Origin: Tuberibacillus calidus DSM 17572
Lineage (GTDB): Bacteria > Bacillota > Bacilli > Bacillales > Sporolactobacillaceae
Length of the DNA: 64,000 nt
Assembly: GCF_000430685.1 (NCBI RefSeq)
Contig: NZ_KE387193.1
Span: 1 to 64,000, forward strand
Reading direction: 5' to 3'
Shown: one piece after another, positions 1-35,340 of the stretch
Layout: each line of letters begins with the position of its first letter
Numbering within the stretch: the first letter of the stretch is position 1
Position numbers and translations under genes: made by a program
Notes under the pieces: model-generated
The model's database searches: none
Seen by the model: only the letters and a program-made list of their open reading frames with translations
Told to the model about the DNA's origin: nothing

Positions 1-337
1 TGACTTCTGATAGTTCAGCGGGCATTCGCATGCCCGGTTACGCAATGTGTTGCGCGTGTCTATCAGATCTCCCAGGGTAAGCGCACATTCTTCCTCTCCA
101 TGTCCCCACTCCATTTACTCTGTATGCCCTTCGGCAGTACGGGCTTTGACTTGTATGGCAGCCTCACCCAAGCACACCTAGCCTTATATGGAGTTCGTGT
201 TCCTTGGGGCGGAGATTTGCCGCCGACTTCCTTCAGATTCCAGGTCACCCTGGACACCCTTGTCTTAAGCTAACGACTACTACTGCCTTCGTCGTTCGGG
301 ACTTGAACCCTATAGAACGTGCGCATGCCTGGCGCAC
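1..337 (-). mobile_element. Group IIC intron, 5' portion (domains I-III, start of IV); continues outside the window
   Basis: The minus strand from 337 begins GTGCGCC, the GUGYG 5' end of group II introns, and continues with blocks that closely resemble the Oceanobacillus iheyensis group IIC ribozyme as I remember it: TCTATAGGG, GTCCCGAAC, GAAGGCAG, AAGGGTGTCC, GGAATCTGAAGGAAG, GGAACACGAACT, ATATAAGGCTAGGT, ACAGAGTAAATG and a CTTACCC-GGGAG segment near 80-66. Subclass C introns insert just 3' of intrinsic terminators, and here the 5' splice site lies 3 bases after the T-run of the ricA terminator. The intron-encoded reverse transcriptase would start in domain IV, beyond position 1, so it is not visible. 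A 64-codon frame at 63-257 is ribozyme sequence and not a gene. Subclass assignment is from remembered sequence similarity plus the target site. Confidence 0.88.
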
Positions 338-340
338 CAC

Positions 341-368
341 AAAAAAACGCCGGCAACATGCCGACGTT
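341..368 (-). terminator. Intrinsic terminator of miaB-ricA; insertion target of the intron
   Basis: On the minus strand, AACGTCGGCA-TGT-TGCCGGCGTT forms a 10 bp stem with one G-T pair, followed by seven T. The stem overlaps the last bases of the ricA stop codon. The intron 5' end follows at 337. Confidence 0.92.
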
Positions 369-751
369 TATTTTTCCTCAAGGACGCGTTGGTCTTTCGT
401 GATGGCTTCCGTGACCCGTTCTGAGATCGTCTTTGAAATATATTGCAGCAAATCGTTGACCTCTTTTTGGGATTGTTTAAACTCTTTGACTAACGGGATG
501 GCATCCAATTCATCCATCAGTTGGTCAATTTTGTTTTCGTTTTCCCGCAAAGCCTCAAATTTTTGATAATGTTGTAGGTTGACGGATTCTTTTTGCAAGC
601 GTTTAATATCCTGGATCAACTTTTGCACTTTTTCATTTTTATTGATTTGCGCTTCTGCTTTTTTAAAAAAGGCGACTTCTTCGGTTTCGGCGAGCATTTT
701 GGCAAGCTCATTGGCTTTCGCTAAAATTTCGTCATGCGTATACACGGTCAT
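368..751 (-). CDS. ricA: RicA (YmcA), YlbF/YmcA family RNA-processing and development factor
   Basis: A 127-residue, all-helical protein of the Com_YlbF family (residues about 5-120, with [10 protein letters not shown] and [14 protein letters not shown] typical of YmcA). In B. subtilis RicA joins RicF and RicT in the Y-complex, which binds Fe-S clusters, works with RNase Y on mRNA maturation and supports sporulation, competence and biofilm formation. The ATG overlaps the miaB stop (ATGA), so the two are translationally coupled. Oddity: the protein contains no cysteine and ends about 16 residues earlier than the B. subtilis protein, whose C-terminal cysteine is reported as a cluster ligand. 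The stop lies before the intron, so the intron did not cut the gene. Family call is firm. Confidence 0.9.
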
Positions 752-2316
752 TGAGTGACAGCCTCCGCTTCTTCAACGAGCTCCCCATCCAGCGTCCATG
801 TTTTTGCGCGTGTGATGCGGACATTAACGAGTTGGCCAATCAATGATTGCGGACCGCGGAAATTGACCACTTTATTCGTGCGAGTATGTCCCGATAAAAC
901 CGCATCGTTTTTCTTGCTGACACCTTCTACGAGCACTTCGACGATTTGGTCTTGATATTTCTCGTTGCTTTTTCTAGCTAATTCATCAACGAGCTTATTC
1001 AAGCGCAGGAGGCGTTCTTTTTTCACTTCCATGGAAACATTGTCTTCCATCCGTGCTGCCGGTGTTCCCGGGCGCGGGGAATAGATAAATGTATAAGCAC
1101 CGTCAAATTGGCATTCTTCAACGAGTGATAATGTATCTTGGAATTGTTCTTCGGTTTCGTTCGGGTACCCGACAATAATATCCGTTGTAAAAGATGCATG
1201 AGGAATAGCCTTTTTCAACTTATGAAAAAGTTCGAGATACAATTCTCTCGTGTAATTTCTACCCATAATTTTGAGAATGGCATTATTGCCGGATTGCACC
1301 GGTAAGTGAATATGTTCGACAAGATTGCCGCCTTTCGCCAAAACCTCAATTAAATCATCAGTAAAGTCCCAAGGATGGCTCGTCGTAAACCGCACGCGGG
1401 GAATGTCAATTTTGCGGATTTCATCCATGAGATGGCTTAACCGATACGAGCCGTCACCGAGATCCTTGCCGTAAGCATTGACGTTTTGACCGAGAAGCGT
1501 GATTTCCTTATAACCTTGGCGGGCAAGGTCGCGCACTTCTTGTATGATGTCTTTTGGCAAGCGACTCCGCTCTTTTCCCCTTGTATAAGGCACAATGCAG
1601 TAAGTGCAGAATTTGTCGCAGCCATACATGATGTTCACCCATGCGCGAACGCGGCCTTTTCGGGCTTTCGGCAAGTTTTCAATGATGTCGCCCTCTTTAG
1701 ACCAGACTTCCATCACCATTTCCTTGCTGAACATGGCCTCGTTCAAAAGTTGTGGCAAGCGGTGAATATTGTGCGTGCCAAAGATCAAATCCACATGTTG
1801 GTGTTTTTGTAAGATGCGGTTGACGACGGCCTCCTCTTGCGCCATGCAGCCGCAAACACCCAAAATAAGGTCAGGCTTTTCCAATTTCAGCGCCTTTAAG
1901 TTACCGATTTCACCAAACACTTTATTTTCGGCGTTTTCACGGACGGCACATGTGTTTAACAGAATAATATCCGCCTCTTCTTCCCGTTCCGTGGCCGTAT
2001 AACCGAGTTCTTCAAGAATCCCCGCCATGACTTCCGTGTCATGTTCATTCATTTGGCAGCCGTATGTGCGGATCAAAAACCGTTTTCCCTTACCAATGCC
2101 AATGAGGTTTTCGGGGATCGAAAAATCATTTAAATATTGCGTGGTATTGCGCCGTCTTCTGCGCGCTTCTTTTAAATTTGGCGCTTGGTAGGTGTGTTGG
2201 AAATATTTCGCGAAATCTTCAGGTTTCTTATTTAAAATCCGCTCTAAATTTTTATCTTTCGTTATATTTTTAGGCTCAACAGCCTGATCATGCATTTTTC
2301 TGTGCTTTTCGTCCAT
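748..2316 (-). CDS. miaB: tRNA-2-methylthio-N6-dimethylallyladenosine synthase MiaB
   Basis: Radical-SAM methylthiotransferase that converts i6A37 to ms2i6A37 in tRNA. Order: an N-terminal extension of about 70 residues as in Bacillus MiaB, UPF0004 domain with three cluster cysteines ([23 protein letters not shown]), radical-SAM core with the CxxxCxxC motif in [10 protein letters not shown], and a C-terminal TRAM domain (VLVEGVSKK onward). A longer frame opens at 2343, but AAAGGGG sits 8 bases before the ATG at 2316, giving 522 residues with an MDEKH start like Bacillus MiaB. The stop overlaps the ricA start. A promoter lies upstream at 2368-2396. Confidence 0.96.
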
Positions 2317-2367
2317 GACTGTACCCCTTTCGATCAAGGTCACTTGGTTAAATCTATACCTTATAAC

Positions 2368-30113: not shown

Positions 30114-30129
30114 AAAAAATCCATGAGGC

Positions 30130-30171
30130 AAAAAACTTGGCTCTCCAAGCCATTGGGTGTTTGGCAGAGCC
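30130..30171 (-). terminator. Second terminator-like hairpin between mlpA and spoVFA
   Basis: GGCTCT and AGAGCC with inner CCAA/TTGG pairing form an imperfect stem, followed by AAGTTTTTT on the minus strand. It lies between the spoVFA promoter and the mlpA terminator, upstream of the promoter. The whole gap 30021-30337 holds this hairpin, the mlpA terminator and the SigK promoter, and no gene; ymxH, found here in B. subtilis, is absent. Confidence 0.6.
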
Positions 30172-30214
30172 TTTCGTTGCCCTTTAGTTAACCTGTAAAT
30201 ACATACGAATAAAA

Positions 30215-30260
30215 AAAGCTGTCTTCCAGTTCCGTGGCGGGAACTTGTGAAGACAGCTTT
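30215..30260 (-). terminator. mlpA terminator
   Basis: AAAGCTGTCTTC...GTTCC and GGAAC...GAAGACAGCTTT form a long stem, followed by TTTTATTCG on the minus strand. Confidence 0.9.
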
Positions 30261-35230: not shown

Positions 35231-35340
35231 AAGATTGTGATGCATAAAGAAACTCAGCTCAGCCAAGCACTTCAAAGCAAAGGCATGGTTGTCATTGACA
35301 TTTTGCCAGCCTTTTAAACGTTTTATTTTCTTACCAGTAC

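Follow-up and report, generated by a model that had tools for sequence, protein, structure and literature searches.

Class C (group IIC) introns are the closest described relatives of the element considered here. Their traits, as set out in the accessible parts of two papers, are insertion at terminators, short IBS1 and IBS3 sequences, and a hairpin that replaces IBS2 (PMC4424553, PMC3898094); B.h.I1 is cited as an example of the IIC type in the accessible part of the first (PMC4424553). A survey places class C introns immediately behind terminators and, in its accessible text, infers that they are rarely transcribed (PMC8919778). Short structured interspersed repeats offer a second point of comparison. 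According to the accessible part of PMC3049150, these include BOX, RUP and SPRITE of Streptococcus pneumoniae, of which BOX is modular and SPRITE is terminator-like and found near gene 3′ ends.

We analyzed positions 1 to 64,000 of contig NZ_KE387193.1 (forward strand) from the Tuberibacillus calidus DSM 17572 assembly GCF_000430685.1, a 64,000-nucleotide stretch to which we refer as the window. Window base 1 is base 1 of the contig, here designated C1, in a draft genome of 3.24 Mb and 81 contigs. The original prediction, made from the sequence alone, placed a group IIC intron exactly behind the ricA terminator at the window edge. It was right in both observation and class, and the intron taken alone is ordinary, known class C behavior. 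The site that the intron occupies turned out to be shared with a dispersed repeat, and it is this shared site that we consider at greatest length.

A group IIC intron at the edge of the window

The first 337 nt of the intron, its 5′ part, lie on the minus strand at positions 1–337. They begin with GTGCGCC at 337 and are cut off where the contig stops, at window base 1; read from 337, the minus strand runs GTGCGCCAGGCATG. The covariance-model search proposed as a check on the assignment bore it out, with cmscan matching the group-II-D1D4-3 core (RF02001) at 82–254 on the minus strand at 136.7 bits (E = 1.9e-29; cut-off 32). At 40–1 on the same strand, the start of RF01998, truncated by the end of the sequence, reached 26 bits, below its cut-off of 35. 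Along with RF02001, the group II ribozyme core is represented by domain V/VI matches (RF00029) of 46.5–47.6 bits, over a cut-off of 40, on partner contigs. Another proposed check, an extension of the sequence to the left, is ruled out by the end of the draft contig, but the domain V/VI and reverse transcriptase (RT) C terminus expected there are present on contig C9.

The intron 5′ piece recurs at three further sites in the genome, with 100% identity on C20 and C4 (over 326 and 323 nt) and 94% on C10. The contig break at the window edge likely arose because the intron, present in several near-identical copies, disrupted assembly. The C10 copy (C10:41292-41628, L030) is a truncated 5′ fragment in which intron sequence ceases after ~327 nt, and a separate 3′ fragment lies near 26893-27234 on C17 (L035).

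Domain V/VI matches fall on five contigs, C9, C11, C53, C56 and C17. On C9, C56, C17 and C53 they are preceded by the last 85–88 residues of an RT, 82–85% identical to the intact 421-aa RT of the relative G001. The middle of the intron, including most of the RT, was not found anywhere in the draft assembly of this genome, and the RT of the copy at ricA could be broken. The G001 RT passes the group II RT/maturase model TIGR04416 (439.6 bits, cut-off 300), and RVT_1 and GIIM are its sole Pfam matches at E 0.001. Its best PDB match is the GsI-IIC RT (6ar1) over residues 3–419 at 559 bits; of the present genome's own RTs, the assembly contains the last 85–88 residues only.

An RT search yielded 575 confirmed intron loci, the best 80 of which are the named loci compared here; blast matched 78 of these 80 to the 337 nt. 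Over that length the closest among the best 80 of 575 come from Ornithinibacillus (86%), Paucisalibacillus and Gracilibacillus (85%), and Halalkalibacterium halodurans (83%). The intron had been described as Oceanobacillus-type. The IIC type holds; among the 80 named loci, the closest sequences are those of Ornithinibacillus and the other Bacillaceae at 83–86%. The H. halodurans locus (L100), which we take to be B.h.I1 itself, is 83% identical over all 337 nt and has in common with our intron a GTGYGCC start, a terminator target and a short EBS1-IBS1 pairing. It differs in its EBS1, which is CTAA where the ricA copy has CATA and the C10 copy AAGA, and the insertion site at ricA is new.

The intron directly follows the miaB-ricA terminator

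As first proposed, the intron has an intrinsic terminator's T-run for its 5′ exon, which is where introns of this subclass are known to insert. The miaB-ricA terminator hairpin (345–369, minus strand) has an 11-pair stem followed by TTTTGTG, with a run of seven T at 341–347. Its stem is the longest among six terminator-like sites in positions 1–2600 (shuffled sequences average 3.1 such sites), and the last 40 nt before the intron fold at −16.6 kcal/mol.

The same arrangement recurs at the junctions of related introns. Our intron 5′ pattern matched 86 times, and removal of two duplicates, three short flanks, four flanks containing N and one match by eye left 76 distinct 5′ junctions: 4 from this genome, 1 from G001 and 71 from the named loci (best 80 of 575), six of which had no pattern match. 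In 73 of the 76 junctions, with named loci drawn from the best 80 of 575, the final 60 nt of the exon scored above the shuffle 99th percentile for hairpins; the count is 73 of 77 if the match removed by eye is included (L106:6265, which has no T-run and is coding-like). Of the remaining three, inspected by eye, two show mismatches that interrupt the stem, and in L112 the stem is weak.

Scanning intron columns for pairing, followed by a permutation test, placed EBS1 at 154–157 on the minus strand (CATA, intron positions 181–184). It pairs, with one G-U, with IBS1 TGTG, the last four bases of the 5′ exon (338–341, minus strand). The EBS1 loop is unreadable in 3 of the 76 sites; in the 73 readable ones (named loci, best 80 of 575), EBS1 and IBS1 pair at all four positions in 53 and at three or more in 71. 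When EBS1 types were permuted among lineages, none of 5000 trials reached 53 (maximum 34, mean 5.9), the EBS1 position having been chosen by scanning the very sites later permuted. There are 23 different EBS1 tetramers among the 73 sites (named loci again from the best 80 of 575), and the truncated C10 copy combines EBS1 AAGA with a matching IBS1, TCTT, so that both sides have changed within one genome. These data indicate that class C introns freely change their four-base target while the hairpin is kept. The 3′ exon opens with T, the usual IBS3, in 59 of 65 junctions (named loci, best 80 of 575).

We propose that the intron reverse-spliced into the DNA of the ricA intrinsic terminator, where the hairpin would stand in for IBS2, IBS1 TGTG would pair with EBS1 CATA, and the T of the 3′ exon would act as IBS3. 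The terminator would remain upstream, such that ricA transcripts would stop before the intron and the intron would be transcribed by read-through only. The intron is probably competent to splice, and the predicted terminator probably active.

A two-hairpin repeat lies at the same point behind terminators

At two of the five intron 3′ junctions in this genome (C9 and C56; a count only), the intron is directly abutted by a dispersed repeat of ~93 nt with two hairpins, which we name the post-terminator element (PTE). A typical copy follows a terminator T-run ending in TATA or similar and reads CTGGTAAGAAAG...CCAGCATAAGGGCAACTAAGGCTCTGCC...GGCAGAGCCAAGTTTTCTTTA; some copies carry additional middle modules. 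The C9 and C56 3′ exons belong to unrelated loci; aligned from the intron end, they share 31 of the first 40 bases, and the next best non-identical pair of 3′ exons among 2080 agrees at 21 of 40. On C56 the PTE model match runs from base 341 of the locus (L034), the intron ending at 340 (36.8 bits, E = 1.6e-4); a first local alignment of this exon had scored 26, compared with 26 for the best of 300 shuffles. On C9 the best model match begins 40 nt inside the 3′ exon (L031 4355; junction 4395), and the outer left end of this PTE is placed by its similarity to C56 alone. The intron 3′ flanks on C11, C53 and C17 (L032, L033, L035) gave no PTE alignment score above shuffles and no PTE model match at the intron junction.

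A search model built from 19 copies, used at a threshold of E 0.001 or better, found at least 73 PTEs in this genome. One copy in the window, at 35245–35337 on the minus strand (42.5 bits, E = 1.1e-5), lies by eye directly behind a hairpin and T-run after a gene that is presumably rpsO-like. A more decayed copy at 30128–30218, also on the minus strand (35.3 bits, E = 2.4e-4), lies by eye behind a long hairpin and T-run, downstream of a gene that we take to be M16 peptidase-like.

Forty PTE loci of this genome were fetched (L143–L182), and nine without a clear left end were dropped. Of the 31 left ends retained, 22 are preceded by 60 nt that end T-rich and fold at −12 kcal/mol or lower, compared with 13 of the 494 windows taken from these loci as controls, by a fold-energy criterion that was chosen after both scores had been seen. 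Seven of the 31 were set by eye (L156, L161, L164, L165, L167, L176 and L181), and when these are left out the count is 16 of 24. A stricter score (stem score of at least 18, six T in the last ten) counts 13 of 31 left ends and 4 of 591 controls, and 16 of 31 left ends exceed the control 95% level for the stricter stem score. We report the fold-energy version because many stems have loops or mismatches that the strict score disallows.

The distance between terminator and element is nearly the same for introns and PTEs. Counted from the first T of the run, the boundary lies at a median of 8 nt for IIC introns (measured at 73 of 76 junctions; named loci from the best 80 of 575) and 9 nt for PTEs, whether in this genome (20 of 21), in other genomes (45 of 46) or behind PTE tails (13 of 13). 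The intron comes to lie at the border of terminator and PTE because both occupy the same point, mostly 7–10 nt past the start of the T-run.

PTEs were found in 22 of the 58 genomes searched, this one included, with 60 copies in G018, 42 in G007, 32 in G056 and 26 in G039. We took 60 PTE loci from other genomes (L204–L263), chosen from the best matches listed and not at random; some represent one site shared by two species, and one has no left end. Among the 59 left ends so chosen, which come from 11 other genomes, 27 lie behind a hairpin and T-run by the criterion used above (controls, 13 of 525), 14 behind the tail of another PTE, 14 behind a T-run without a strong fold in the stretch scored, and 4 behind neither. 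Across the 80 named intron loci (best 80 of 575), the sole PTE match was a weak one (L051, E 0.021).

The sequences of the PTE hairpins vary by lineage, and both hairpins are kept by compensating changes across lineages. Hairpin 1 has four Watson-Crick closing pairs in 49 of 76 copies, compared with a mean of 11 and a maximum of 21 when arms were swapped between genomes; in hairpin 2 at least seven of eight positions are paired in 53 of 74 copies (swapped: mean 27, maximum 36).

No Rfam 15 family fits the PTE in a scan of 17 PTE loci at E up to 1. The only match at cut-off level was a tRNA beside the L250 element, and RF02901 in L224, which overlaps a PTE, reached 23.4 of 97 bits, far below its cut-off. 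REP/BIME sequences and IS200/IS605-derived elements have hairpins, tandem copies and extragenic positions, as PTEs do, but the ends of the sole Y1 locus here look different by eye. That locus (L183, G000:C11) is an IS605-type element with tnpA (Y1_Tnp) and what is presumably a tnpB-like gene. BOX, RUP and SPRITE, as described in the accessible part of PMC3049150, resemble PTEs in being short structured interspersed repeats; compared by description, with the sequences unaligned, PTEs differ in abutting a separate upstream terminator and in occurring in Bacillales. We found no description of the PTE in the open-licence literature, including the accessible parts of PMC3049150 and PMC10969869, although publication elsewhere is possible.

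PTEs as candidate mobile elements

Whatever its mover, the PTE stands at slightly better than even odds, in our estimate, of being a new terminator-targeting mobile repeat. Its most likely identity is that of a DNA-transposed, MITE-like element, a non-autonomous transposon of the BOX/REP/MITE kind moved by some transposase. Such an element and IIC introns would have arrived at a common terminator site by converging on a hairpin and T-rich single-stranded DNA, and we give this account an even chance. It is consistent with the dispersal and the two hairpins of PTEs, with a right-end tail that resembles the left flank by eye, and with the left ends that lie behind another PTE's tail (14 of 59 in other genomes, chosen from the best matches listed); BOX, RUP and SPRITE provide precedent (PMC3049150, accessible part). 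No autonomous relative was seen, the place examined being the single Y1 locus of this genome, with its different ends by eye. Y1 transposases are uninformative for the PTE: 51 of the 58 genomes have them, and two genomes with PTEs, G008 and G011, gave no Y1 match.

If PTEs were instead immobile, they would belong to extended terminators or to structured 3′ RNAs, homogenized by recombination. We regard this as unlikely: PTEs come after the T-run, by which point transcription should have ended, the upstream hairpins differ between sites by eye, and compensating change among copies within this genome was found in 0 of 6 pairs. The terminator on the same strand just before the PTE in the sites read, and the hairpins preserved by compensating changes between lineages, are nonetheless what an immobile element would lead one to expect.

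The bold option, which we consider improbable, is that the PTE family is a SINE-like parasite of the IIC intron ribonucleoprotein, with the same terminator geometry, in part of the Bacillales. G018, G007 and G056, with 60, 42 and 32 PTEs, have no RT match at E 1e-60, as is also the case for the present genome, and G001, G033 and G047 have RTs and no PTEs. This mismatch argues against the parasite idea, tempered by the fact that drafts lose intron middles.

The intron copy at ricA and its partner contig

Contig C1 ends with miaB, ricA and the intron 5′ end, and contig C9 ends with the intron 3′ end, an M42 peptidase gene, CotE and a gene that we take to be MutS. Among the ricA loci of 15 relatives, the M42 peptidase gene comes next in 2 (G002 and G010) and cotE is nearby in 11, of which 7 also have mutS; 2 have neither M42 nor cotE, one owing to a contig end. 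Given the adjacency of ricA and the M42 peptidase gene in G002 and G010, C9 is the expected partner of C1. A single intron between ricA and the M42 peptidase gene would be the simplest reading of the two contig ends, by synteny with other genera. Another draft (L014, G003:C14:1-265) also has a contig break right behind ricA, where the end resembles an insertion sequence by eye, not an intron.

The best explanation is a class C intron copy reverse-spliced at the ricA terminator, to which we assign a probability of about 0.92. The copy on C1 is 100% identical to those on C20 and C4 and is cut solely by the contig end. This identity, together with the G002 and G010 gene order that predicts C9 as the partner, makes it very unlikely that a dead 5′ fragment like that on C10 lies alone behind ricA and that the C9 3′ half is another insertion, even though intron fragments do occur in this genome (C10, ~327 nt and then non-intron sequence; C17, 3′ part only) and the assembly has no contig spanning the intron at ricA. 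With the reverse-spliced intron as the preferred reading, we infer that the PTE at the ricA site predates the intron. Neither G002 nor G010 (L012, L015) has a PTE at the ricA-M42 site.

ricA and the miaB-ricA transcript

The ricA gene (ymcA; 368–751, minus strand) encodes a 127-aa Com_YlbF protein and is preceded by miaB (748–2343, minus strand; TIGR01574, 628.8 bits). We found no paper joining group II introns with ymcA in the open-licence literature. The claim that the insertion leaves ricA intact holds for the reading frame, which the intron does not cut, with the rider that this RicA is without the C-terminal STGGD...C tail and its cysteine. In Bacillus subtilis RicA, C141 in this tail is an Fe-S cluster ligand, according to the accessible part of PMC6751060. 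The C-terminal cysteine is absent from RicA in 7 of 14 usable relatives (G004 was excluded as frameshifted); in G002 and G008 the cysteine is missing and the remaining tail is kept. The RicF- and RicT-like proteins of the genome, assigned by resemblance, retain cysteine-rich motifs. We considered and rejected the intron as the cause of the tail loss, which is not likely because 7 of 14 relatives share the absence of the cysteine. By eye, the codon for the last cysteine and the ricA stop lie inside the terminator stem in G001, G010 and G009 (L039, L015, L017).

An altered 3′ end of the miaB-ricA transcript, also part of the original prediction, went unsupported: both the hairpin and the seven-T run precede the intron in full, and the transcript should therefore end before it. 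Though the intron lies directly behind the miaB-ricA operon and RicA is itself an RNA-processing factor (PMC6751060, accessible part), we find it scarcely credible that the intron alters ricA expression, for example through the 3′ end or stability of the mRNA, as the terminator is complete before the intron and introns of the terminator class are inferred to be rarely transcribed (PMC8919778, accessible part); a promoter-like site of the downstream gene's own (one, where shuffles average 1.3) carries little weight.

Discussion

Taken by itself, the intron adds one more case to an already documented habit, and the site that it shares with the PTE matters more. The PTE is a widespread, apparently undescribed two-hairpin repeat at a site shared with IIC introns. 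Should PTEs prove mobile, no fewer than two unrelated types of element would be using the terminator hairpin and T-run as a safe landing site, at a near-equal distance, with one type able to insert at the edge of the other. Were this true, terminators would be a general target for small bacterial elements and not a peculiarity of class C introns, and a single genome would offer more than 70 natural insertions for asking what is recognized.
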